In this document: in pieces, positions 192-18,466 of the stretch
How the letters are laid out: each line of letters begins with the position of its first letter
How positions within the stretch are numbered: the first letter of the stretch is position 1
NCBI GenBank assembly: GCA_902495265.1
Contig: CABUWR010000004.1
Location: forward strand, 1-18,466
Direction of reading: 5' to 3'
DNA from: an uncultured Collinsella sp.
GTDB taxonomy: Bacteria; Actinomycetota; Coriobacteriia; Coriobacteriales; Coriobacteriaceae
Length of the DNA stretch: 18,466 nucleotides
Position numbers and translations under genes: made by a program
The notes under the pieces: generated by a model
Databases searched by the model: none
What the model was told of the DNA's origin: nothing
What the model saw: only the letters and a program-made list of their open reading frames with translations

Positions 192-3730
<3,539 letters not shown>

Positions 3731-3731
<1 letters not shown>

Positions 3732-3758
3732 ATACCCCTCTCCTCTCATATAGGTATA
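3731..3758 (-). promoter_or_regulatory. nifJ ribosome binding site in the loop of a small inverted repeat
   Basis: The purine-rich Shine-Dalgarno stretch (GAGGAGAGG in the transcript) ends about 6-8 nt before the nifJ ATG and fixes that start. It is flanked by a perfect 6-bp inverted repeat: GGTATA at 3753-3758 and TATACC at 3731-3736, the latter touching the first base of the start codon. In RNA this places the ribosome site in a 16-nt loop. The stem is AU-rich and weak, so the repeat is certain but any regulatory role is inference. Confidence 0.5.
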
Positions 3759-3763
3759 CAGGC

Positions 3764-3779
3764 CCCGGCGATCGCCGGG
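3764..3779. promoter_or_regulatory. 16-bp perfect palindrome in the nifJ leader
   Basis: CCCGGCGATCGCCGGG is a perfect self-complementary 16-mer, 33 bp upstream of the nifJ start codon and just ahead of its ribosome binding site. It could be an operator for a dimeric regulator or a GC-rich RNA hairpin that shields or exposes the ribosome site. No regulator is recognisable from the sequence, and chance formation in GC-rich DNA is possible. Confidence 0.4.
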
Positions 3780-4130
3780 ATATTGGCGTGATGGGATTTT
3801 CGTTGTTGCTTCCAATCATCTGGCAGGCGGACTCAGCAGCAGGTACATGGCGTGGAGAGAAGGCATGCCAAGGCGAGGAGGGCTGCACGCGCTCCACAGG
3901 CCCAGCTACCCGTCTTGCACATGACCGAGCGCCGCAAAGGCCGCATGTCGGATGCTCCCGGGCACGCCCCGGCGATGGGAAGCGCCCGCAACGGAAATCC
4001 GCATGCGGGTTTATTGTACCCCGCCGTCAAGCCATATTTCGGCAAATATAGGTGGCCGGTAAAGGTTTACCTCGGGTGACTATTGTGCGCCCGGCACCGA
4101 CGGACACAGTCCCCTGGAACCCCACAGCAG
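3780..4130. other. Intergenic leader upstream of nifJ, no gene recognised
   Basis: About 350 bases lie between the nifJ palindrome and the 63-bp repeat. The short reading frames here have no ribosome binding site, no conserved-looking sequence and biased Cys/Arg/Pro composition, so they are not called. The stretch 4013-4018 reads TACAAT on the minus strand and is a plausible -10 for nifJ. It would give a 5' leader of roughly 280 nt, but no matching -35 is at the right distance (TTGACG lies only 6 nt upstream). No known riboswitch was recognised. Confidence 0.4.
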
Positions 4131-4193
4131 TTGCGGTGAAATAGGGAGTGTTTTTGCTGTTAACGGCCTTAATCAGTCCCTATTTCACCGCAA
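4131..4193. repeat. 63-bp palindromic element with 17-bp perfect arms
   Basis: TTGCGGTGAAATAGGGA (4131-4147) is the exact reverse complement of TCCCTATTTCACCGCAA (4177-4193). One mismatch inside is followed by two more pairs, and the centre contains GTTAAC and TTAA words that add partial symmetry. The element begins 18 nt beyond the stop of the FHA gene (minus strand) and lies upstream of nifJ. It has no U-tract on either side, so it is not a classical intrinsic terminator. It could be a REP/MITE-like repeat or a structured transcription block between the two units. No coding content is present. Confidence 0.7.
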
Positions 4194-4211
4194 GTTATTT
4201 GGGGGGATGAG

Positions 4212-5150
4212 TTAGAGGGCGCCGAGGAGGATGGCGTAGGTAGTGGATTCGCCGAGTTTGAGCTCGTCGCCGGGGTTGAGCTGGGCGGAGCGGCCAGGCT
4301 CTACTTGAATACACACGCTTGTGGCCCCGTTTACCACCACGGTGCCGTTCGTGGACGACAGGTCCTCGACAAACCATGCGCCAGAATCGTCGCACCAGAT
4401 ATGGGCATGGCGGGCCGAGACGTCGTCGCCGACGTCGGTGATGTCGCCCTCCCCCGTTGCCAGCGCGCCGATCTCGACGCCTTCCTCACTCGGCTGAATC
4501 CAGCGCGGGGCGCTCACCACGTAGCCGTTTTGCACGCGCAGCAGTCCCAGCGGATGCGCTGGCGCGACCTCGTGCTCGCCCGCGACCGAAGATGTGCTCA
4601 GCGAGCGCGGCGTCGACGTGGCGCCGCCACAGGTCGCATGAGCGTAGTCGATGGCATAGGTCACCGACGAACGGACATCTGCCGAGCAACCCACGGCGAC
4701 AAACAGCACCAGGATGGCCTCGGCGCGCTCGGCGGGCATGAGCTCAGCCGCCTGCGACAGGCGCTCGAGCGCATTGCGATAGAGATTCGTGTCCTGATGG
4801 CATTCCTCGAGCGCCCGCACCATGGGCTCGCCAGCGGGGCCGCACACCATATTGGTCACGGCCGCGGCGTCCATGGGATTGCGACGGCGCAGGGCCAGCT
4901 GCGACATAATGCGCGCGGCCGAGGTGCCGTAATCGGCAAAATAACGTTCCTGCAGCGTGCCGACCGGCGCGCGCACGATAAAGCGCGAAACCCAGGAGCG
5001 ATCGGCGGCACGGCTCTGCGGACTACGGCCGTCGGCGAGCGGGCGGCTCGAGAGCACCAGGCCGCACAGTTCGATATGGCTCAGGTGCGCTGCGCGCTTA
5101 AAGATGTCAAACATTGCCCCGCACGGGGTGAGCTCAGCTTGAGAAGCCAT
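4212..5150 (-). CDS. FHA domain protein with helical N-terminal region
   Basis: The predicted cytoplasmic protein is 312 aa with no signal peptide or membrane helix. Residues about 205-312 form a forkhead-associated domain, which in this family binds phosphothreonine peptides. Motifs seen are SARHAHI (S245, H248), EDLSSTNGT (N268) and the closing LNPGDELKLG. The usual Gly-Arg at the third strand is IGA (227-229), so the arginine that normally contacts phosphate is absent at that position. Residues about 12-175 are Ala/Leu/Glu-rich and look helical, and I do not recognise a family there. AAGGAGG lies 8 nt before the ATG, supporting this start. The gene begins 3 bp after the kinase stop, so it is translationally linked to the kinase, and it is the last gene of the unit. 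It is probably a reader or effector of the upstream kinase, and the kinase-reader link is inferred from context. Confidence 0.85.
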   Translation of the reverse strand: MASQAELTPCGAMFDIFKRAAHLSHIELCGLVLSSRPLADGRSPQSRAADRSWVSRFIVRAPVGTLQERYFADYGTSAARIMSQLALRRRNPMDAAAVTNMVCGPAGEPMVRALEECHQDTNLYRNALERLSQAAELMPAERAEAILVLFVAVGCSADVRSSVTYAIDYAHATCGGATSTPRSLSTSSVAGEHEVAPAHPLGLLRVQNGYVVSAPRWIQPSEEGVEIGALATGEGDITDVGDDVSARHAHIWCDDSGAWFVEDLSSTNGTVVVNGATSVCIQVEPGRSAQLNPGDELKLGESTTYAILLGAL

Positions 5151-5153
5151 GGC

Positions 5154-6995
5154 TTAGCCCTCCTTGGTCGCAGAGATCGTGTCGGATACTTCGGCCGACC
5201 CGCCAAAGGTGCGGGCAGCCGCGGCTCCGCCGGCAAGCGGCGTCGCCATAGGAATTTTCGCACGTCGTGCTGACACGACGGGAGGCTCAAAGGCAAACCC
5301 CATCGCCAGCAAAAACCACGTGAGCGCATAGGTTGCAATTATGGCGGCCACCAGGCCACCCGCCACGGCATGCTGGGAAAACACAGCACATGCGAGTGCG
5401 GCCAGGGCCGGAACCTCGCAGGCAGAAAGGGCCAACACGCCCTGCAGGAATCCCGCACGGCGGTCGCGTGCCAAGGCCCCGGCAGCGATGCCCACCATGC
5501 CCGGCGATGCCAACGCCAGCGCGGCGATAATGGCCGGCAGCTTCCCGGACCACATAAGCGGTCCCACGACGAACGTCACATGGGCGCCCGACGCCAACAG
5601 CGCCGCTGATACCACGACCACAGTCCAAAGCACGCCGCATACCGCCGTCGCACCAACCATCACCGCACGCCGGGCTGTGTGCCCCGATACCTCCATCGGG
5701 CACGGCATGAGCGGCTCGGCGCGAAGCGAGCGGGCGACATTTTGCGCATAGTGGTCGCAAAATGCCGAGAGCGCCGCCTCCACCGCAGCCGGCTCGGGAC
5801 GATCTTCCTGATGGCAGGACAGGCAGGCCATCACCACATCGAACAGCTGAGCGTCGACAAACGCCAGCGCATCGCGCAGGTCCTCGGAATTTGGATCGAG
5901 CCCCAACTGCTGAGCCTGTTCGGCCGCGGCAAGTGCCACATCGGGCTCGCGTCGCAGCAGTTGCGTCAAGTCGCAGCCGGGCGCGTGGGCGCCGACGGGA
6001 TAATCGGGCAGCATATCCATCTTGAGGCAATAAGGGCTGGCGATATCGCGTGTCTTTTTGCGCGAGCCCAAAGTACCCGACGCACCCGGCGCTACTTCGT
6101 ACGGCGCGACACCGGCGATGAGCTCGTAGACCGTACTCGCCGCTGCGTAGACATCGATCGCCGGCGACATGCGAAGCATGCGCAGGTCGGGGATATCGTC
6201 GGTGAGCATCTCGGGCGGGGCGTAGGCCACCGTCGCGCGGCGCAACGTGGCATAGCGCTCGGTAAACGATGCCTTGCCGCCGGCGCCGGCCACCGCAGAG
6301 GCGGGCTCGAGCGCCAGCGACGAGCCAAAGTCGATCAAGCACAGGTCGAAGGTGCCTTCGGCAAGCTGTCGGTCGAGCGGCAGGCGCGCCGTGCGCACCA
6401 TAATATTAGCGGGAGAGATATCGCGATGGACGAACCCCTCGCCTACCAAGCTCATGTGGCAGAGCAGATCGAACAGGTCGCGACCCAGGCGCGCCGCCAC
6501 GAGCGGCGACAGACGCCCGGCATCGTCCACGGCAAGGCGCGGGCGCAGGCGAGCGAGCGTCTCGCCCTCGACCCATTCCATGACAATTGCAGACACACCG
6601 TCGACCTCGCCCCAGCCATAGAGGCGGGGAAAGCCCTTAAGGCCCGAAAGGGCACGATGGCATTCATATTCCTCGCGAAACGCCGCCTTGAACTTGGTGA
6701 CCAGCGCCTCGTGGGCGACATCGTCATCAAATTCGTCGCGCGTTGGCAAGATGAGCTGCTTGAGCGCCACGGCCTCGCCCTGCGCGTTGACGGCACGCGT
6801 CACACGGCCGATACCGCCGCGGCGCATGGTGGCGTCATCGGCAAACAGCATCGTAAAACGGCGCAGGTAGGCGGGAAGCTCGTCCGTGCCCAGGGCGACA
6901 GCCGGCTCAAACCCGTCGACGCGCGCCAGGCGCAGGCCCACCATGGGATCACGGTTGAGCGGCTGGGCTGCCGTAGAAGCGAGGTCGTTCGTCAT
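5154..6995 (-). CDS. Membrane Ser/Thr protein kinase (RD type)
   Basis: This 613-aa Hanks-type protein kinase should transfer phosphate from ATP to Ser/Thr of partner proteins. The catalytic domain spans about residues 45-415. It shows a glycine loop GGIGRV (60-65), VALK with K79, HRDISPANI (H190-D192), IDFG with D222, and AYAPPEM with E262. Residues about 442-567 hold roughly four hydrophobic helices, so the kinase domain is probably cytoplasmic and tethered. There are no PASTA repeats and no large external domain. The start at 6995 is chosen because its ATG overlaps the stop of the preceding gene as ATGA. The longer upstream frame would run into that gene and begins with low-quality Arg-rich sequence. 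The FHA gene follows after 3 bp. The missing sensor domain may be supplied by the anchored protein encoded just upstream (inference). It differs from the window's other kinase in keeping the RD arginine (R191). Confidence 0.93.
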   Translation of the reverse strand: MTNDLASTAAQPLNRDPMVGLRLARVDGFEPAVALGTDELPAYLRRFTMLFADDATMRRGGIGRVTRAVNAQGEAVALKQLILPTRDEFDDDVAHEALVTKFKAAFREEYECHRALSGLKGFPRLYGWGEVDGVSAIVMEWVEGETLARLRPRLAVDDAGRLSPLVAARLGRDLFDLLCHMSLVGEGFVHRDISPANIMVRTARLPLDRQLAEGTFDLCLIDFGSSLALEPASAVAGAGGKASFTERYATLRRATVAYAPPEMLTDDIPDLRMLRMSPAIDVYAAASTVYELIAGVAPYEVAPGASGTLGSRKKTRDIASPYCLKMDMLPDYPVGAHAPGCDLTQLLRREPDVALAAAEQAQQLGLDPNSEDLRDALAFVDAQLFDVVMACLSCHQEDRPEPAAVEAALSAFCDHYAQNVARSLRAEPLMPCPMEVSGHTARRAVMVGATAVCGVLWTVVVVSAALLASGAHVTFVVGPLMWSGKLPAIIAALALASPGMVGIAAGALARDRRAGFLQGVLALSACEVPALAALACAVFSQHAVAGGLVAAIIATYALTWFLLAMGFAFEPPVVSARRAKIPMATPLAGGAAAARTFGGSAEVSDTISATKEG

Positions 6996-7900
6996 AGGGC
7001 GATCGCCGCCACATTGGTGTTGAAGTTGTTGAGCGCGACGTCGTCGTCGCCGTAGTGCCCAACCCATTGACACAGGTTGGTATAGCAGCCCCACAGATTG
7101 GCATACTGCCGATACCACTTAGATTTGGTCGAGAACCTTTGCCGACCGAACTCGGCACGGATAACAAACATATCGTTGGCCAGGGTGTCGCACGGTCCGG
7201 TATCGCCCGTAGCGTTATAGGTCGAAACCACGCTGTTGGCGCGGGCGACATAGCCATCGAGCATGTTGTATTTGGTCACGAGCCAACTGTGAATACTCTC
7301 CTCCTCGGCAGCCGAGAGGCCACCCGAGCCCGCGTCCCCGCCGGTACCGCCGTCCGTCGAGCCACCACTCGAAGATCCACCGCCAGAGGCGGAGCCCGAA
7401 CCGGAACCGCCGTCCGAGCCCGCCGAACCGCTGCCAGAACCGGACCCGTCCGAGCCGCCGGGCTTGCCCGTCTGCTGCGTATCCTGCTCCTTCTGCCGCT
7501 CCGCCTTGTTAACGACAGAAGCCACGCTGTTATTGGAAAGCTTCGTGATGATCTTGGTGTTGGTGAGCACGATGGTCTTGCCGTTTGTCAGCGTGATCTC
7601 GTTGGACGCCTGCTCGCCCTCGTCCGCGGGATCGACGCCAAACACGGTGCGCCCGACCACGCTCGCCCACGCATATCCAGTTGTCGTTCCCAAGTCGCTT
7701 TTGGCCTTGCGCCCAATATGCAGCTCACGCGCAGCATGCGCCTGCACCATGGACGGCACCGTCATGCCATAAGCCGAAACACCGGCTATGACCAGCACGA
7801 GCGAGCAAGACAGCAGCACATACGCCCGAGGCGCCAGGCCCAGTCGGCGTCGCATGCGCACCGCGGCGCCATGCTTTGTCTGAGTGCCCCCGGGCCGCAT
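6992..7900 (-). CDS. Membrane-anchored protein with Gly/Ser linker and exported C-terminal domain
   Basis: I do not recognise the family. The 302-aa product has a basic N-terminus (MRRRLGLAPR, 16-25) followed by one hydrophobic helix (about 26-48), consistent with an uncleaved anchor and an outside C-terminus. Residues about 60-140 contain an Asn/Thr-rich region with the repeated look of LTNGKTIVLTNTK. Residues 146-194 are an almost pure Gly/Ser/Asp linker, and residues 195-302 form a Trp/Tyr-rich domain with C237, C272 and C277. The start at 7900 is set by GGAGGAG (7906-7912) 5 nt upstream. Longer upstream frames cross a terminator-like hairpin and are rejected. The stop overlaps the kinase start by 4 bp, so this is the first gene of a three-gene unit. 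A sensor or ligand-binding partner for the kinase is a reasonable inference, not shown by any motif. Confidence 0.82.
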   Translation of the reverse strand: MRPGGTQTKHGAAVRMRRRLGLAPRAYVLLSCSLVLVIAGVSAYGMTVPSMVQAHAARELHIGRKAKSDLGTTTGYAWASVVGRTVFGVDPADEGEQASNEITLTNGKTIVLTNTKIITKLSNNSVASVVNKAERQKEQDTQQTGKPGGSDGSGSGSGSAGSDGGSGSGSASGGGSSSGGSTDGGTGGDAGSGGLSAAEEESIHSWLVTKYNMLDGYVARANSVVSTYNATGDTGPCDTLANDMFVIRAEFGRQRFSTKSKWYRQYANLWGCYTNLCQWVGHYGDDDVALNNFNTNVAAIAL

Positions 7901-7915
7901 GCGTTCTCCTCCAAC

Positions 7916-7940
7916 AAAAACACGCCGCTTAAAAGCGGCG
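7916..7940 (-). terminator. Terminator-like hairpin immediately ahead of a ribosome binding site
   Basis: On the minus strand CGCCGCTT (7933-7940) pairs with AAGCGGCG (7923-7930) and is followed after TG by five T residues (7916-7920). This is the form of an intrinsic terminator. The ribosome binding site of the 7900 gene begins only 4 nt further on. It may end transcription arriving from recR or act as an attenuator in the leader of the three-gene unit, since no promoter can fit between it and the gene. Confidence 0.6.
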
Positions 7941-7962
7941 CATTCTTTCATATTCACATTTG

Positions 7963-7993
7963 AGTGTATCAGCGAACCCAAAAGGTTGCGCAA
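7963..7993 (-). promoter_or_regulatory. Possible promoter for the kinase/FHA unit
   Basis: Read on the minus strand, TTGCGC (7988-7993) and TACACT (7963-7968) resemble -35 and -10 elements, but the 19-nt spacing is longer than ideal. The -35 lies inside the palindrome GTTGCGCAAC (7985-7994). Transcription from here would pass through the hairpin at 7916-7940 before reaching the first gene. The assignment is weak. Confidence 0.3.
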
Positions 7994-8054
7994 CGAATGG
8001 GCAAATACGAGGCGCAGGCGGACCCATCCACGCGATAAGCGGATGAAAAGCAGG

Positions 8055-8070
8055 TTTGTTGCACAACAAA
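8055..8070. promoter_or_regulatory. 16-bp inverted repeat, possible operator
   Basis: TTTGTTG (8055-8061) and CAACAAA (8064-8070) are exact reverse complements separated by two bases. The site lies between recR and the 7900 gene, about 60 bp upstream (in transcription sense) of the possible promoter. Its AT-rich dyad suits a helix-turn-helix dimer, but no cognate regulator is visible. Confidence 0.3.
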
Positions 8071-8097
8071 TGTATGAACGCGCGCCCAATTATGAGT

Positions 8098-8134
8098 GCC
8101 CCGTGCGGCAGGCCGACGGGACATGCCGTGGGGC
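8098..8134 (-). terminator. GC-rich hairpin just after recR
   Basis: GCCCC and CGGCA (8098-8110) pair with TGCCG and GGGGC (8124-8134) with a small bulge, forming a strong stem 10 nt beyond the recR stop. No T-run follows on the minus strand, so any termination would have to be independent of a U-tract. It may simply protect the 3' end of the dnaX/ybaB/recR transcripts. Confidence 0.4.
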
Positions 8135-8143
8135 TGACGCCGC

Positions 8144-8740
8144 CTAGATCGCGCGGCGGGCCTCGATAGCGCGGCCAAGCGTAAGCTCGTCGGCATACTC
8201 CAAGTCGCCGCCCACGGGAAGGCCGCTCGCAAGACGCGATACCTCAACGCCCAATGGCTTGATGGTGCGAGCAAGGTAGCTCGCCGTAGTCTCGCCCTCG
8301 ATGTTGGGGTTGGTGGCGATAATGACCTCGTGGATGTCCTCGTGGCCCAGGCGCGCCAGCAGCTCGCGGATATGCAGCTGCTCGGGACCGATCTTGTCCA
8401 TGGGGCTGATCACGCCGCCCAGCACATGGTACAGGCCATGGTAGCTGCCCGTGCGCTCGATTGCCTGAACGTCGCGTGGCTCGCCCACCACGCAAATGCG
8501 AGTGGTATCGCGCATCGGATCCTGGCAGATGGAGCACTCGTCGGCCGTGGCGTAGTTAAAGCAACGGCTGCAAAAGTGGACCTCCTGCTTAACCTCCAGG
8601 ATGGCCTCGGCCAGGCGGCGGGCCTCCTCGGCATCGGCCTCGAGCAGGTAATAGGCGATGCGCTGGGCCGACTTGGGACCAATGCCCGGCAGACGACCCA
8701 GCTCATCGAGCAGTTTTTGCAGACTGTGATTCGCACTCAT
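8144..8740 (-). CDS. recR: Recombination mediator protein RecR
   Basis: RecR acts with RecO (and RecF) to load RecA at single-strand gaps during recombinational repair. The 198 aa match the family length. Order of parts: an N-terminal helix-hairpin-helix region ([17 protein letters not shown], about 17-33), a four-cysteine zinc finger (C57, C60, C69, C72), a Toprim domain beginning [11 protein letters not shown] (81-91), and the conserved C-terminal [19 protein letters not shown] (173-191). The start at 8740 gives the standard N-terminus. No clear Shine-Dalgarno is seen upstream, and the gene begins 13 bp after the ybaB stop, so it probably depends on translational coupling with ybaB. Confidence 0.97.
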
Positions 8741-8753
8741 ATATATGCGTGTC

Positions 8754-9074
8754 TTAGAACGGCATGCCCGGGATGTTGAGGCCGCCGGTGATGGCGCCCA
8801 TCTGCTTGTTGGCGAGCTCGTTGACGCCGCGGACGGCCTCGTTGACGGCAGCCATGATCATGTCCTGCAGCATATCGACGTCCTCGGGATCGAGGGCATC
8901 GGGATCGATGGTGAGGTTGACGAGCTCCATCTCGCCGTTAACGGTCACCTTGACCATACCGCCGCCGGCAGAGGCGTCGACGGTCTGGGACTTGAGGTTC
9001 TCCTGCGCGGCGGCAAGCTGCTCCTGCATCTTGCGAGCCTGCTTCATCATCTGCTGCATGTTCATACCGGCCAT
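8754..9074 (-). CDS. ybaB: YbaB/EbfC family nucleoid-associated protein
   Basis: This small 106-aa DNA-binding protein belongs to the family that forms dimers on the nucleoid and is commonly encoded between dnaX and recR. The sequence shows the Met/Gln-rich amphipathic N-terminal helix ([17 protein letters not shown]), a central beta segment ([20 protein letters not shown], about 37-56) and a C-terminal helix with [10 protein letters not shown]. The C-terminus ends in a short Gly/Pro tail. AAAGGAG (9080-9086) lies 5 nt before the ATG. recR follows after 13 bp. Here dnaX is not directly adjacent, because a gene of opposite orientation separates them, so ybaB-recR presumably has its own promoter in 9075-9414. 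Confidence 0.95.
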
Positions 9075-9414: not shown

Positions 9415-9888
9415 ATGAATGCCCCCGACATGCTCCAGAACATCCGCTCAAAACACCCCGTTGCATATGTGGTTCTCTATCTCTTTGTCGGCTGGGCATT
9501 GCTGGTTGTCATCACCCATGCCATAGCTTTTGGAGCAGAACTGCTGATAGCCAGCTCGGACCAGCCCGTCGTCAAATGGGAAGCGACCGATGAGTGCACC
9601 GACGGAACCCGAACCATTTACTACAACAGCCCGTCCCTCTACCAAGAGTTCAAGGTCAAGATAAAGGGCTCCAAGATTGTCGATGCCGAAATGGGCTCTT
9701 TATTTACAATCGGAGCAACCGTCAACGCCGAGCAAGTCGAGTACACGGACAGCCACGCGACGTATCGTATCGACCTCAGCACCCTAGGCCGACCGTCACG
9801 CACCTGTCTGCTCGAATGCGATATACGCGGTACCGCACTACACATGTCCGAAATACAGATGCGCCCGGACAAAGAGACCCCTTCGTGA
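9415..9888 (+). CDS. Small membrane-anchored protein of unknown function
   Basis: I do not recognise this 157-aa protein. It has a short N-terminal segment, one strong hydrophobic helix (about 17-40) and a polar remainder of about 115 residues, with cysteines near C62 and a CLLEC pair, which probably lies outside the cell. GGAGG sits 6 nt before the ATG and a consensus TATAAT is just upstream, so expression is likely. It converges on dnaX, the two stops being separated by only 21 bp, and diverges from ybaB. Its base and codon use is less GC-biased than its neighbours (more A/T-ending codons, ATA present), and it sits within an otherwise conserved gene order. This suggests later insertion, possibly by horizontal transfer. 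Confidence 0.75.
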   Translation: MNAPDMLQNIRSKHPVAYVVLYLFVGWALLVVITHAIAFGAELLIASSDQPVVKWEATDECTDGTRTIYYNSPSLYQEFKVKIKGSKIVDAEMGSLFTIGATVNAEQVEYTDSHATYRIDLSTLGRPSRTCLLECDIRGTALHMSEIQMRPDKETPS

Positions 9889-13271: not shown

Positions 13272-13359
13272 AGCAGCATCTATGCCACCGCGAACGCCGG
13301 AACGGGCCGCGCCCGCGCCCGCCGCTCGCAAACGAACTTTAAACGCACGAGGGTTGGCC

Positions 13360-15213
13360 ATGCCGCTTTTCTCGCAACATACCGCCCGGTTCTCGCCGGA
13401 CGTTCCTTTGGAGGGCACCAGCTCTCGCGAGCTGCTCAAGCGGTTCCAGCCGCTCGAAACGCTCGCGACCGGCGGTTTTGGCTCCATCGAGATTTGCCGC
13501 GACACGCACCTGCGCCGTCGCGTCGCCATTAAGCGCATTCCCCTCACAGGCGGTGCCGGCATGCCCGCCAGCGACATCATGGATGTCCTGCGCGAGGCAC
13601 ACACCGCCGCCATGCTTCAACATCCCAATATCGTGCAGGTTATCGACTTTACGCACGATACCGCCTATGCCTACCTCGTCATGGAATATGTCGACGGCAT
13701 GTCCCTAGCCGAGTTTTTACATCGCGTGGACGGCCATTCGCTCACCTTTGACGAGGCCGCGGCAATTGCCGACGCGCTGGGCCAGGCGCTCACCTTCGCC
13801 CATAGCAACGGCGTGCTCCACCTGGATATTAAGCCCGCCAACGTGCTCATCGACCACTCGGGCAACGTTAAGCTCACCGACTTTGGCATGGCGCGTCTGT
13901 CGTCTGCCGGCGGCTTTGGCGGCTCGCGCGGCGGCACCATCGGCTACATGCCACCCGAGCAGCTAGACATCGAGACTGGCACGGTTGACGAGCGCGCCGA
14001 TGTCTTTGCCCTCGCCTGTGTAATCTACGAGGGCCTGTGCGGCAGCGCCCCCTTTATGGCCGCCACGCCCGGCGACTCGCTCGGCCGCATCATCGGCGGT
14101 GCCACCTACCCTAGCGAGCTCATCCCGCACTTTCCCCCGGGAGCCGAGGCTGCGCTCATGAGCGCCCTCTCCCCCATGCCGCAAGACCGCCCCAGCAGCA
14201 TCGAGGCATTTTGCGACCAGCTGCTCGCCGGCTTGGGCAGCGTGCGCGAGGGCCGTCGCAGCCTGGAGCAGATGGTGGGAGAGCTGTCGGATGATGAGCG
14301 CGCGGCAGACGATATCGAATCGTTGCCCTATGAGGACGACACCATCGAGGTCAACCCCGCACTCGGCTGGGCCGGCACGCGCTGGAGCCACGCGCGCGAT
14401 TACACGATGCGCGCCATCTCGGCGCTAACGTGTGGTGCCTTTAGCTTTTTGATCATGCAGACGGCTGGCGTCGCGGCGCTTCCCGGACTTATTGCCGCGG
14501 CCTTCGCGATCGGGGCGGCCGCCGGCCTGGCCCCGCAGATTGGCTCGGCTATCTCGGCCGTGGGTTTTTTGGTACTTATGGCCAACGCCACCATGCAGGC
14601 GCAGGGCATCCTGTCGATGCTGCCCGTCGCGGTGCTCTTTGCCGCCACCATGTCCGGTTGGTGGATCGCCTGGGGTCGTACCGAGGCTGCCGCGAGCGCC
14701 GCGCTCACCTGCGCGGTGGCACTTGGCTGTCTAACGGGCGACGTCCTCCTTGCCGCCGGGGTCGCCACCGGCATCGCGGCCTTTTGGCTCGGCCCGGCAA
14801 GCGCCGCGGCCGCCACGGGGATGGGCGCGCTTTTTGGCCGCCTGGCTACGGTTGCGCTTTCCACCGGAGGCGTGCTGGGGCTTGGCAATGTTGCCGCGGC
14901 ACTGGGAGACATGCTCTTCTGGGCTGCCGTCGTGCTCGTCGCGGCGACAGCTGCACTGACATCTCTGCTGCTCAACGTCCATGCCAAGCGTGCCGAGCAG
15001 GGTTCGAACCTGGCTGCAATCGCTGCCATCGCCGGCTGCGGAATAGGCTCCGCGGCGTCGCTCTGTCTTGCACACCATATGGAAATTGCCAGCCTTGCGG
15101 CCGCGGTCGTCGTCAAGGCGGCGGTTGCGGGAACCCTATCCTCTATAATCGTTGGGATATGCCTATATTTGCTCGGATACCAAAGAACCTATACGGAGAG
15201 TGATCTTTCGTGA
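13360..15213 (+). CDS. Polytopic membrane Ser/Thr protein kinase (non-RD)
   Basis: This 617-aa Hanks-type kinase is the first gene of the phospho-signalling operon. The catalytic domain (about 30-290) has the glycine loop ATGGFGSI (36-43), VAIK with K58, the C-helix glutamate E79, HLDIKPANVL (154-163), TDFG with D174 and YMPPEQL with E200. The catalytic loop reads HLD rather than HRD, so it lacks the arginine that usually couples activity to activation-loop phosphorylation. After an acidic spacer (305-332), residues about 350-610 form a very hydrophobic Ala/Gly-rich region of roughly eight or more helices, unlike the single helix plus PASTA domain of PknB. Start 13360 has GAGGG 8-9 nt upstream. 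An in-frame ATG at 13282 has no ribosome site and would add 26 Arg/Pro-rich residues. The stop overlaps the fhaA start by 4 bp. Confidence 0.92.
   Translation: MPLFSQHTARFSPDVPLEGTSSRELLKRFQPLETLATGGFGSIEICRDTHLRRRVAIKRIPLTGGAGMPASDIMDVLREAHTAAMLQHPNIVQVIDFTHDTAYAYLVMEYVDGMSLAEFLHRVDGHSLTFDEAAAIADALGQALTFAHSNGVLHLDIKPANVLIDHSGNVKLTDFGMARLSSAGGFGGSRGGTIGYMPPEQLDIETGTVDERADVFALACVIYEGLCGSAPFMAATPGDSLGRIIGGATYPSELIPHFPPGAEAALMSALSPMPQDRPSSIEAFCDQLLAGLGSVREGRRSLEQMVGELSDDERAADDIESLPYEDDTIEVNPALGWAGTRWSHARDYTMRAISALTCGAFSFLIMQTAGVAALPGLIAAAFAIGAAAGLAPQIGSAISAVGFLVLMANATMQAQGILSMLPVAVLFAATMSGWWIAWGRTEAAASAALTCAVALGCLTGDVLLAAGVATGIAAFWLGPASAAAATGMGALFGRLATVALSTGGVLGLGNVAAALGDMLFWAAVVLVAATAALTSLLLNVHAKRAEQGSNLAAIAAIAGCGIGSAASLCLAHHMEIASLAAAVVVKAAVAGTLSSIIVGICLYLLGYQRTYTESDLS
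15144..15149 (+). promoter_or_regulatory. Internal -10 box upstream of fhaA
   Basis: A perfect TATAAT lies inside the 3' end of the kinase gene, 60 bp before the fhaA start. It could let fhaA-fhaB-pstP be transcribed without the kinase. No -35 is found at standard spacing (TTGCGG at 15125-15130 leaves only 13 bp), so it may be fortuitous. Confidence 0.3.
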
Positions 15214-16220
15214 ACTTCCTGAACATCTTCGAGGACCACGTGGCCGGCATCTTCGGTGCCACCCGTGCCCCGTTCTCCTTTAAGAAGCTTGCCAAGCAGG
15301 CCGCTCGCGACATGGAGGATCAGACTCTGGTGATCAACGGCGTCAACACGGCGCCGGCACTCTATACCATCCTTATCGCCGCCGACGACGATCCCATGCT
15401 CGCCCCGTTCTACCCCGAGCTTTCGCGCGAAGTCCGCGAGTTTGTGAAGGCACAGGCCGAAAAGCGCCGCTATGTGTTTGTCGGCGAGCCCCTCGTTCGC
15501 TTTATGATCGACCCGCAGCTGCGTGCCGGTAAGTTCTCGGTCTTTGCCGAGAACGTCGACGCCCCCACGCTCGGTCGTCTGTACGAGGAAGAGCGCGCCT
15601 ACCAGAATGGCCTGGGCCAGAACAACTCGGCCGCAAGCCGTGCCGCCAGCGCTCCCCGCGCCGGCAAGCAGCAATTCGCCGCCCCGCAGCAACAGCACGC
15701 CGCCGCCATGCCCCAGCAGCCGACGCCCCGTGCCGCCGCTCCCGACCCGCTCGCCGTGGCCGATCCCTTTGCGCCCAACGTCCCCGACCCCGCCGCCGCG
15801 CCCATCCCCGTGCCGCAGACCGTCTCTCGTGACGCCCTCGCCGGTATGGGCGGAGCCGCCGCGACCGGCGCCGCCGTGGGCCTTGGCGCCGCAGCCGGTA
15901 TTGCCTCCAACATGGCGAGCACCCGCGCCCCGCAGCGCCCGCTCGCCCAGCTCGTCGACGTCGTGAGCGGCGAGAGCCACAGCATCACTTCCGCGCAGGT
16001 GACCATCGGTCGCGAGCGTTCGGTTTCGGACATCGCCCTGCGCGACCCCAACGTGTCGCGCCGTCACGCCCAGCTCACCTTTACCGGTTCGGACTGGTCG
16101 ATCGAGGACCTCAATTCCACCAACGGCACGCTCGTCAACAACCGCCGCATCACGCGCTGCCCGCTGCGCAACGGCGACCTGCTGACGTTTGGCCTAAGTA
16201 CCTTTGAATTTAGGGGATAG
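15210..16220 (+). CDS. fhaA: FhaA-like protein: DUF3662 domain plus FHA domain
   Basis: This 336-aa cytoplasmic protein corresponds to actinobacterial FhaA, whose FHA domain binds phosphorylated cell-wall and division partners. Residues 1-135 match the FhaA N-terminal domain (MNFLNIFEDHVAGIFG at the start, then VNTAPALYTILIAADDD and RYVFVGEPLVRFMID). Residues 136-245 are an Ala/Pro/Gln linker. Residues about 248-336 are a complete FHA domain with TIGRERSVSD (G267, R268), VSRRHAQ (S283, H286), LNSTNGT (N305) and GDLLTFG. Translation starts at a GTG overlapping the kinase stop as GTGA, with GGAGAG 9 nt upstream, so the two genes are coupled. Unlike the left FHA protein, all phosphate-contacting positions are present. 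A short Gly/Ala run at 211-233 could be weakly membrane-active but is too small to call a helix. Confidence 0.93.
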   Translation: MNFLNIFEDHVAGIFGATRAPFSFKKLAKQAARDMEDQTLVINGVNTAPALYTILIAADDDPMLAPFYPELSREVREFVKAQAEKRRYVFVGEPLVRFMIDPQLRAGKFSVFAENVDAPTLGRLYEEERAYQNGLGQNNSAASRAASAPRAGKQQFAAPQQQHAAAMPQQPTPRAAAPDPLAVADPFAPNVPDPAAAPIPVPQTVSRDALAGMGGAAATGAAVGLGAAAGIASNMASTRAPQRPLAQLVDVVSGESHSITSAQVTIGRERSVSDIALRDPNVSRRHAQLTFTGSDWSIEDLNSTNGTLVNNRRITRCPLRNGDLLTFGLSTFEFRG

Positions 16221-16226
16221 TCGCTT

Positions 16227-16643
16227 ATGAACATCGATATCGTCCTTTTTGCAGGCCGCATCGTCCTGGTCGCCCTGCTCTACATCTTCCTGTTCGCCGT
16301 CATGAAAACCGGCGTGGGACTCGTACGCGGCCAGCGCCGCGACTCCGCTATCTGGACGATCGATGTGGACAAGGGTCCGCGCGGCATCCGTGGCATCCAT
16401 GTAGACATGCTCGGCCCCGTCATCGTGGGCCGCTCGCCGTCCTCCGACATCTGCATCAACGAACCGTTTGTCTCAGCCTCGCACGCACGCTTTTCGCTGC
16501 AGGGCCCGGCACTCATCATCGAAGACCTCAACTCGCTGAACGGCACGCTCGTTAACGGCCGTCAGCTGGTGGAGCCCGCAACGCTGCGCGAGGGTGATGA
16601 GGTCCAGATTGGCGACGTGGTCATGAAGGTGAACCGTCGATGA
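16227..16643 (+). CDS. fhaB: FhaB-like membrane-anchored FHA protein
   Basis: The 138-aa protein has one N-terminal membrane helix (about 7-27) and a short basic stretch (VRGQRR), so the rest faces the cytoplasm. Residues about 43-138 form a complete FHA domain with VIVGRSPSSDI (G68, R69), FVSASHARF (S83, H86), EDLNSLNGT (N105, G106) and EGDEVQIGD. In Actinobacteria FhaB (also called FipA in mycobacteria) sits in this position and takes part in division and envelope control. AGGGGA lies 9 nt before the ATG, 6 bp after the fhaA stop. The stop overlaps the pstP start as ATGA. Confidence 0.93.
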   Translation: MNIDIVLFAGRIVLVALLYIFLFAVMKTGVGLVRGQRRDSAIWTIDVDKGPRGIRGIHVDMLGPVIVGRSPSSDICINEPFVSASHARFSLQGPALIIEDLNSLNGTLVNGRQLVEPATLREGDEVQIGDVVMKVNRR

Positions 16644-18466
16644 TCGACGAGGAGAACAAGTCCGCAACCATGCCCGAGACGCCAACTGCCCCCGCAGCTG
16701 CGCCGGCTCATGCCGCTCCGGCGCGCCCTGCGACCGTGGAGCCCGAGGACACCGTGTTCTCCCTGCCTCTTTCGCATGTAACTCAAGAATATCCGGCACT
16801 CGTCGATGACGAGGACGCCGACACCGAGCAGCTCGACGCCCCCATCGGCGCGCACGCTGCCGAGCAGCCCGCGGAACCGGAGGCAACGCCCGCACCGGCT
16901 CACTTTGCCGAGCCCGTCGCCGAGGCGATTAACGAGAGCGCTGCCGTGTTTGCAGCCCCCGAGCCTGCCGCGCCGGTATTCCCCGTCGCCCCGGCAAGCG
17001 AGGCGGCGCCCGCATCTGCAACGCCTGCCGAAGTCGAGCAGCCCGTTGCCGCGCCCGCCGCAGCTCCCGAGCCCTCCGCTCAACCTCAGAGCACGCCCGC
17101 GCCGTCGCACTTTGCGACGCCCGAGCCGACGGCTGTCGAGCCGCAGCAGGACGGCGATCCCGCCGACCGCGTAACCGAAGACCTCAACCTTCCGGACGTC
17201 TCCGACGCCGAGTCGGGCAACAATGCCGACACCGTCTCCCCCGGCGACACCGCCGAGATCGATGTCGCCGCCGTGGAGGCAAAGCTCAAAGATCCCGGCT
17301 CGACCATGAGCTTTGAGCCGCTGACCGACGAGCGCATCGAGACCGACTCGACCTACGACGCCGGCACCACCACACAGCTTATGTGGGGCGCCCGTTCCGA
17401 CGTCGGATGCGTACGCCCGCACAACGAGGACTCCTATCTGGTGCAGTCGCCGCTCTTTTGCGTGTGCGACGGCATGGGGGGACACGCCGCCGGCGAGGTG
17501 GCATCCTCCATCGCCGTCGAGACCATCGCCAAGACGGCACCGCAGTCCGCCGACGCCGCGCGCCTGGCCGCAGCCGTCGAGGCCGCCAACGCCGCCGTGA
17601 TCGAGGCCGCCCTCAACGGCCTGGGCAAACCCGGCATGGGATGCACGGCCACCTGCGCCTACATCGAAAACGACACGCTCGCCATCGCCCACGTGGGCGA
17701 CTCGCGCGCCTACCTGCTCCACGAGGGTACGCTCATCCGCGTGACCCGCGACCATTCCTACGTGGAGGAGCTCGTGGATGCCGGCGAGATTACGGCCGAC
17801 GAGGCCCGCGTCCACCCCAACCGCTCGGTCATCACCCGCGCGCTGGGCTCGGATCCCGCCATGTATGCCGACCACTTTACCCTGCACATCGAGGAAGGCG
17901 ACCGCCTGATTCTGTGCTCCGACGGTCTTTCGAGCATGATTCCCGATAGCGATATCGAGAACATCGCTACGCAGTCCTCGAGCGCACAGATCTGTGTCGA
18001 CAACTTGGTGGACGCGGCGCTCGCCGCCGGCGGCCACGACAATGTGACCGTGGTGGTCGTCGACCTGGTCGACGACGGCGTCATGCGCGAGGCAAAACGC
18101 GTCCGACGCCGCAATGTCACCATCGCCGCCGTCTTGGCCCTTGTCTTTGTGCTGATAGCAGGCATCTGGGCATACACGGGCGTCACCGGCTCCTATTACT
18201 TGGGAACCTACCACGGCAATGTCGCCGTCTGGCGCGGCCTGCCCGGCAAGACGCTCGGGGTCGAGCTCCACTGGCTCGAAAGCGAAACCAGCATCAAGCT
18301 GTCCGACCTGCCCGAAGACACGCAAAACCGCCTCAAGGCGGGCATTCCGCAAACAAGTGTCGACGATGCGCAGGACACGATATCCAAGTACCGCCACCAG
18401 ATCGACGAGGAGCAAACCCGCCAGGTGATCGACGCCCAAACGATTCGCGACAACACCAATCAGGGA
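16640..18466 (+). CDS. pstP: PP2C-family Ser/Thr phosphatase (PstP-like), 3' end outside the window
   Basis: This is a metal-dependent PPM phosphatase that removes phosphate from Ser/Thr targets of the operon's kinases. The frame is open from 16640 to the window end, 609 codons without a stop. Residues 1-247 are an acidic, Ala/Pro/Glu-rich extension that looks disordered. The catalytic domain (about 248-475) has RPHNED (259-264), CDGMGGHAAGE (D277, G278), VGDSRAYL (D354), LCSDGL (D428) and GGHDNVT (D467, N468), so the metal-binding aspartates are in place. A basic stretch and one membrane helix (about 493-515) follow, then an external region to at least residue 609. Known PstP proteins usually start at the catalytic domain. 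The start at 16640 is favoured by the ATGA overlap with fhaB and by lack of ribosome sites before internal ATGs at 17308 and 17381. rodA, pbpA and pknB would be expected downstream. Confidence 0.92.
   Translation, partial: MIDEENKSATMPETPTAPAAAPAHAAPARPATVEPEDTVFSLPLSHVTQEYPALVDDEDADTEQLDAPIGAHAAEQPAEPEATPAPAHFAEPVAEAINESAAVFAAPEPAAPVFPVAPASEAAPASATPAEVEQPVAAPAAAPEPSAQPQSTPAPSHFATPEPTAVEPQQDGDPADRVTEDLNLPDVSDAESGNNADTVSPGDTAEIDVAAVEAKLKDPGSTMSFEPLTDERIETDSTYDAGTTTQLMWGARSDVGCVRPHNEDSYLVQSPLFCVCDGMGGHAAGEVASSIAVETIAKTAPQSADAARLAAAVEAANAAVIEAALNGLGKPGMGCTATCAYIENDTLAIAHVGDSRAYLLHEGTLIRVTRDHSYVEELVDAGEITADEARVHPNRSVITRALGSDPAMYADHFTLHIEEGDRLILCSDGLSSMIPDSDIENIATQSSSAQICVDNLVDAALAAGGHDNVTVVVVDLVDDGVMREAKRVRRRNVTIAAVLALVFVLIAGIWAYTGVTGSYYLGTYHGNVAVWRGLPGKTLGVELHWLESETSIKLSDLPEDTQNRLKAGIPQTSVDDAQDTISKYRHQIDEEQTRQVIDAQTIRDNTNQG

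Follow-up and report, generated by a model that had tools for sequence, protein, structure and literature searches.

Three adjacent genes in an 18,466-nucleotide stretch of DNA from an uncultured Collinsella sp. (contig CABUWR010000004.1; hereafter "the window") encode an anchored protein with an outer helical domain ("gene 1"), a Hanks-type Ser/Thr kinase with transmembrane (TM) segments, and a protein with an FHA domain ("the adaptor"). We judge the chances to be about even that the three genes form one membrane signalling unit, i.e., a receptor kinase whose parts are divided among three proteins. Judging from sequence comparison, gene 1 most likely replaces the fused sensor of related kinases, because gene 1 is found with kinases that have several TM segments, whereas the related kinases that lack gene 1 mostly have fused tails. 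Collinsella and related bacteria are frequent in the gut, and little is known about how they sense their surroundings.

All three genes are encoded on the minus strand (Table 1). Gene 1 and the kinase gene have the four bases ATGA (6995–6992) in common, and the kinase and adaptor genes are separated by 3 bp (5153–5151), the same 4-bp overlap and 3-bp gap that an earlier note had described for this DNA. A scan of named genomes with an alignment of the kinase yielded, from the best 80 of 376 stretches, 79 distinct loci (L074–L152). We refer to these loci as type A or type B, a line that was drawn after the loci had been inspected. Type A comprises 44 loci (L074–L116 and L143), of which 42 encode kinases with three to six TM segments in the tail, all TM counts being from hydropathy only; L105, with one tail TM segment, and L143, with none because the kinase is split between reading frames, were placed in type A by likeness. 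Type B comprises the other 35 loci, with zero or one tail TM segment and with short tails in L119, L138 and L152. The gene-1 domain is encoded directly upstream of the kinase in 42 of 44 type-A loci and in none of the 35 type-B loci. Divided by TM count alone, 40 of 42 loci with at least three tail TM segments have gene 1, as do 2 of 37 with fewer (L105 and L143). An FHA adaptor gene is located within 1.5 kb of the kinase gene at every type-A locus (40 downstream on the same strand and 4, all in Olsenella, divergent) and at 28 of 35 type-B loci, some of the seven misses being at contig ends. A start codon that permits the 4-bp overlap is present in 39 of the 42 type-A loci with gene 1. These counts are not independent, since 19 type-A loci (L074–L092) come from the close C. 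aerofaciens group. Nevertheless, the same order and partners recur across genera, which argues that the arrangement is more than chance and bears out the earlier proposal of a conserved neighbourhood in Coriobacteriia; the loci also include named members of the genera Enorma, Slackia, Senegalimassilia, Olsenella, Adlercreutzia, Parvibacter and Aphodovivens. Two type-A genes are split between reading frames, possibly through decay of the unit or sequence error: the kinase gene of C. phocaeensis (L143, 7914–9738) and gene 1 of a Senegalimassilia (L103, 6504–7947).

The search method matters for how widely gene 1 appears to be distributed. With the whole protein as the query, 16 of 58 relatives gave strong matches (E below 1e-100), and there were four weak matches, mostly over the linker, one of which (G035) is a true gene-1 locus (L055). 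A whole-protein search therefore underrates the spread of gene 1, and a profile of the outer domain is needed. Such a linker-free profile matched only open reading frames (ORFs) just upstream of type-A kinases among 15312 six-frame ORFs from 100 sequences, which include repeats of the same loci. Genes on the other loci were called with a codon-usage script, and those it missed (e.g., in L104) were recovered by six-frame search. Few of the gene-1 matches carry an organism name; those that do are mostly Collinsella, with one Tractidigestivibacter.

Kinases that lack gene 1 tend to have a domain of their own in its place. Of 24 type-B kinases scanned, from 23 of the 35 loci, 12 have a tail with DUF6273 and 8 a tail with WG repeats; thus, 20 of 24 carry a fused tail domain, in agreement with the earlier suggestion that in the trio the input is split from the kinase. 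Given the single TM segment, the DUF6273 and WG tails would lie outside the cell. The WG- and DUF6273-tailed kinases of L120, L122, L134 and other type-B loci are mostly encoded near an FHA adaptor and make up a larger family of kinase-adaptor pairs. Quick trees of the kinases and of the adaptors, supported by the Shimodaira–Hasegawa-like approximate likelihood ratio test (SH-aLRT) only and with long branches flagged for L109, L117, L128 and L129, split alike. The kinase tree groups 22 type-B sequences with a support of 99 and 26 type-A sequences with a support of 95, and L115, L117 and L121 fall beside the type-A group; the adaptor tree groups 15 type-B sequences at 99 and 21 type-A sequences at 98, and here L115 and L117 adjoin the type-A group. 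In L115, L117 and L121, the kinase gene is preceded by a gene for a protein with a zinc ribbon, a TM segment and an outer domain. In L117, the outer region of this upstream protein resembles the tail of the kinase itself (BLASTP E 1e-11, in an alignment of 286 columns that takes in the TM segment and linker), which is the best single hint that an upstream protein can take the place of the sensor. The corresponding match in L121 is short (E 0.002), and the kinase there extends past the contig end.

The gene 1 protein has a single predicted TM segment, with only ~27 residues on the cytosolic side, followed by a linker in which 24 of 57 residues are Gly and 15 are Ser. Its C-terminal domain contains 4 Trp and 7 Tyr among 108 residues. 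Nothing in Pfam or NCBIfam matched the protein over cut-off, and the Pfam scan found no zinc ribbon in it (P0001); the earlier description of an anchored protein with a Gly/Ser linker, a Trp/Tyr-rich end and no recognized family is therefore upheld. AlphaFold2 (AF2), given a 23-row alignment, predicts the outer domain as four helices, with a predicted local distance difference test (pLDDT) score of 96.5 and a predicted template modelling (pTM) score of 0.86, so that the structure prediction proposed earlier for residues 195–302 gives a four-helix bundle. Across 19 aligned gene-1 proteins, the best conserved segment is residues 21–55, which include the TM segment (mean 2.57 bits per column, against 2.18 for the outer domain). 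Alignments also show that the gene 1 protein of the window lacks some 30–40 residues present in most relatives.

The outer domain is not confined to the trio. It was found in 103 of 296 genomes of the class (E <= 0.001) and in 13 of 246 genomes drawn from the phylum, all of which belong to one order. One profile matches both gene 1 and a set of single-TM zinc-ribbon membrane proteins of Coriobacteriales that are encoded away from kinases. In G001, the genome nearest to the window among those compared (42% of sampled words in common), and in most of the close group there are three matches, i.e., the trio and two more; in G001, the extra two are zinc-ribbon proteins. No adjoining kinase of the trio family was called beside the zinc-ribbon proteins of L153, L154 and L156. 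The earlier note had considered that gene 1 might occur mostly with unrelated neighbours: as a gene, it is conserved in the trio, but its domain also occurs on these zinc-ribbon proteins. At L154 (G001; 3680–8968), the gene for the zinc-ribbon/TM/four-helix protein adjoins mreB, mreC, and cyclophilin-like and TPR-like genes. The same neighbours are seen in another family at L157 (7207–12282), where mreB was confirmed and mreC and the zinc ribbon were recognized by eye. The protein encoded beside mreB and mreC is a possible unnamed component of cell shape.

By profile and catalytic motifs, the second protein of the trio is a Hanks-type Ser/Thr kinase. It matches Pkinase (PF00069) with 59.7 bits (cut-off 31.7) and also ABC1 with 27.3 bits (cut-off 22.9). 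Among 27 aligned type-A kinases (that of the window and those from 26 of the 44 type-A loci), Lys79, Glu109, His190, Asp192, Asn197 and Asp222-Phe223-Gly224 are kept in all, the Arg of the HRD motif in 26, and Thr245 of the activation loop in 24. Four hydrophobic segments lie in the tail (residues 444–554), which lacks a soluble outer domain, consistent with the earlier claim that the kinase has all catalytic motifs and lacks an external sensor; a fifth hydrophobic segment (residues 376–394) was assigned to the kinase part. The match to the PASTA kinase model NF033483 reaches 37.4 bits, over the kinase part only, against a cut-off of 450, and Pfam gave no match to PASTA repeats. The system thus differs from PknB/PASTA kinases, as the earlier note had supposed.

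The C-terminal part of the adaptor is an FHA domain, both by profile (PF00498; 41.5 bits, cut-off 20.7) and by its beta-sandwich fold, and residues 9–174 form a helical part without a family name, as previously proposed. In the fold search with the adaptor, the FHA part occupied the match list. The Arg of the FHA "GR" motif, which falls at position 229, is absent from all 38 aligned FHA relatives, the window having Ala229, and none of 22 type-A adaptors has Arg at position 246. By contrast, ordinary FHA domains keep the GR Arg in 36 of 36 cases, although these controls were chosen with a profile that itself bears GR; 21 were scored and 15 read by eye (all VGR). A pattern count on 120 homologues found no Arg in the 87 that it matched and missed 33, and was not used as a count. 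With the GR Arg lost, the earlier description of this protein as a phosphothreonine "reader" appears doubtful. By analogy with the type VII secretion protein YukB, the adaptor may instead dock onto its kinase without phosphate. The FHA part of YukB co-purifies from Escherichia coli with the pseudokinase domain of YukC (PMC9600267), and the phosphate-binding residues of FHA domains are not conserved in YukB (PMC9600267) or in EssC (PMC4925161).

Parts of the adaptor gene also occur as extra copies. Several genomes of the C. aerofaciens group have a copy of the FHA part only (approximately residues 168–312). Such copies are present in L078 (17215–17529) and L083 (17209–17523), the latter followed by the same hairpin arms that follow the adaptor gene of the window, and in G003, G010, G012, G025 and G030, where they are 90–94% identical to that of the window. 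In C. aerofaciens L077 (5356–9874), two genes separate the adaptor gene from an incomplete duplicate of its 3′ end, an arrangement that looks like the insertion of an island; by eye, they encode an ABC transporter and a radical-SAM/SPASM-like protein.

If the three proteins work together, the TM segment of gene 1 would lie beside the four-TM tail of the kinase, and the Gly/Ser linker would allow the four-helix domain to extend into the cell wall. A change outside the cell (a ligand, the state of the wall, or crowding) could then be relayed to the kinase by contact between TM segments, and the kinase would phosphorylate itself and its targets. The FHA protein would act as a cytosolic adaptor that binds the kinase through its FHA domain, probably with no need for phosphothreonine, while its helical domain might recruit a substrate or target. 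The state would be reset by the PP2C phosphatase of a neighbouring cluster. That phosphatase matches the Stp1-type model with 250.6 bits (cut-off 230); the earlier statement that no phosphatase is included holds for the trio but not for the window. One copy was found in seven of eight related genomes, as counted with this model only, and the same eight genomes have three to eight kinase matches each. Published work describes PstP as the one Ser/Thr phosphatase annotated in many Actinobacteria (PMC6554272). Given this precedent and the single Stp1-type copy, it is plausible that the PP2C is shared with the trio.

Several observations weigh against a split receptor kinase of this kind. Two type-A loci, L099 and L115, have no match to the gene-1 profile and were counted as misses; by eye, L099 has a frame with a TM segment, a Ser/Gly linker and a helical-looking end, and L115 has a different outer domain, joined to a zinc ribbon and a TM segment, in the place of gene 1. 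On each tree, the type labels require two changes rather than one. Of 296 class genomes, 74 encode the adaptor at E 1e-20, so the unit is patchy, or accessory; near-full-length adaptors were seen only within the same order, matches outside it covering approximately profile residues 173–286, mostly FHA. No PDB match to the outer-domain model was found with Foldseek at E <= 0.001, and therefore no ligand can be guessed. The presence of the domain on zinc-ribbon proteins with no adjoining kinase means that it need not be a kinase sensor. Gene 1 could be an output rather than an input, i.e., an envelope protein whose position or action is controlled by the kinase. This is unlikely in our judgement, despite the zinc-ribbon stalk proteins that carry the same domain away from kinases and the zinc-ribbon relative beside mreB in two families (mreC confirmed in one), which hints at a separate role connected with the wall: gene 1 has only its short N terminus on the cytosolic side, and the fused tails of most of the gene-1-less kinases scanned fit a sensor slot. 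As to the adaptor, Ser245, His248 and Gly269 are invariant among the 38 relatives and Asn268 is kept in 35 of 38, so some phosphate binding may remain, and Arg205, kept in 37 of 38, might stand in for the lost Arg. A classical reader, in which the FHA domain binds phosphothreonine (Thr245 of the kinase or another site) with a different basic residue replacing the Arg, is somewhat unlikely. Against it stands the lack of Arg at both 229 and 246, which we matched to R61 and R76 of Bdellovibrio DgcB, the residues that hold phosphate there (PMC6733907).

Two further explanations were considered. It is improbable that the genes are simply neighbours whose products do not cooperate. Tight gene packing is common in bacteria, but the same partners occur in several families despite differing flanking genes, they are kept in Olsenella although the FHA gene is inverted there, and the kinase and adaptor trees have matching splits. 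It is more improbable still that the trio is a control unit that has become separated from a type VII secretion system (T7SS). There are parallels: T7SSd of Olsenella uli has a membrane Ser/Thr kinase, and T7SSe has an FHA protein, TseJ (PMC11217815); in G055, from the genus group of the Olsenella locus L061/L107, a 1264-aa frame matches EssC below the cut-off. The idea was tested with one model, EssC TIGR03928, a Firmicutes model that may miss a diverged T7SSd ATPase; it is over cut-off in one of eight trio genomes, and the adaptor has no DUF6382 match at E <= 0.5.

We return to the split receptor kinase as the preferred explanation. More tentatively, we suggest that it represents a new class, in which an active kinase and an FHA scaffold that does not read phosphothreonine form a core found across Coriobacteriia, combined with swappable outside parts that are either fused (WG, DUF6273 or beta domains) or separate (the four-helix stalk). 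Collinsella is not mentioned among the literature matches listed, and we claim nothing wider about published work. If the explanation is correct, the trio would offer a small receptor from which the outer part, the kinase and the adaptor could each be deleted singly, and it would provide an example of an FHA domain that partners an active kinase in some role other than reading phosphothreonine. The explanation also places domains that are unnamed or little known (the gene-1 domain, the helical domain of the adaptor, and the DUF6273 and WG tails) in one testable frame.

Table 1. Coordinates of the trio and associated features in the window
Feature	Position	Strand	Length or basis
Gene 1: short Arg-rich N terminus, one TM segment, Gly/Ser linker, outer helical domain	6992..7900	-	302 aa
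Gene 1, single predicted TM segment, residues 28-46	7763..7819	-	
Gene 1, Gly/Ser linker, residues 138-194	7319..7489	-	
Gene 1, outer domain, residues 195-302, predicted four-helix bundle	6995..7318	-	AF2 and profile
Hanks-type Ser/Thr kinase with four-TM tail	5154..6995	-	613 aa
Kinase tail, four predicted TM segments, residues 444-554	5334..5666	-	
FHA adaptor: helical domain 9-174 and FHA domain 201-309	4212..5150	-	312 aa
Ala229 codon of the adaptor, at the site of the Arg of the FHA GR motif	4464..4466	-	alignment to 1uht
Inverted repeat: 34-nt arms, 82% complementary, 17-nt loop	4120..4204	not assigned	
Stp1/IreP-type PP2C phosphatase of the neighbouring cluster, extending past the window end	16640..18466	+	

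Seven bases past the stop codon of the adaptor gene begins an inverted repeat, a possible transcript end that the terminator scan did not list. That scan returned one site, against 3.0 in shuffled sequences, and the promoter scan one site, against 0.6. The hairpin arm TTGCGGTGAAATAGGGA (window 4120–4204; L153 6996–7012) is repeated exactly in 7 of 165 loci, some of them from the same genome, and may be a dispersed repeat; the copy in L153 lies 72 bases ahead of the gene for a zinc-ribbon paralogue of gene 1. Upstream of the trio are what we take to be recR-like (8740–8144) and ybaB-like (9074–8754) genes. An ORF of 157 aa whose N-terminal part is hydrophobic (9415–9888, plus strand) lies antisense between two neighbours, presumably the dnaX-like and ybaB-like genes; the NCBIfam search gave no match for it, and its position is kept in L073 (2572–3045). 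At the other end of the window (13282–18466, plus strand), a second kinase has a PknB-like kinase domain, seven predicted TM segments in its tail and no PASTA match. Its gene overlaps an FhaA-like gene by 4 bp and is followed by a small FHA gene and the PP2C gene; G001 has a further kinase match past the PP2C.

The trio resembles several known systems, and differs from each. Among them are the type-B kinases of Coriobacteriia, which are of the same kinase family and have the same kind of FHA adaptor nearby; unlike the trio, they have at most one tail TM segment, mostly a fused tail domain, and no gene 1. The zinc-ribbon proteins of L153, L154 and L156 share a single TM segment and a homologous outer domain with gene 1 but begin with zinc ribbons, which gene 1 lacks. 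Like the PknB/Stk1-type PASTA kinases, the trio has a membrane-bound Hanks-type kinase domain, with a PP2C available, but its kinase has a four-TM tail in place of PASTA repeats, and the outside domain is on a separate protein. The FhaA- and FhaB-like proteins of the PknB-type cluster in the window are likewise FHA proteins encoded beside a kinase. Their FHA domains keep the GR Arg, whereas the adaptor has lost it and has its own helical domain instead of FhaA_N (PF12401), for which the adaptor (P0003) gave no match at E <= 0.5 and P0005 of the window gave one of 66.7 bits. Lastly, YukB and YukC/EssB of T7SSb also pair an FHA domain that lacks the phosphothreonine-binding residues with a kinase-fold membrane protein (PMC9600267, PMC11217815). 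YukC/EssB is a pseudokinase and the FHA domain of YukB is on an ATPase, whereas the trio kinase keeps its catalytic residues and its FHA partner is a small adaptor.

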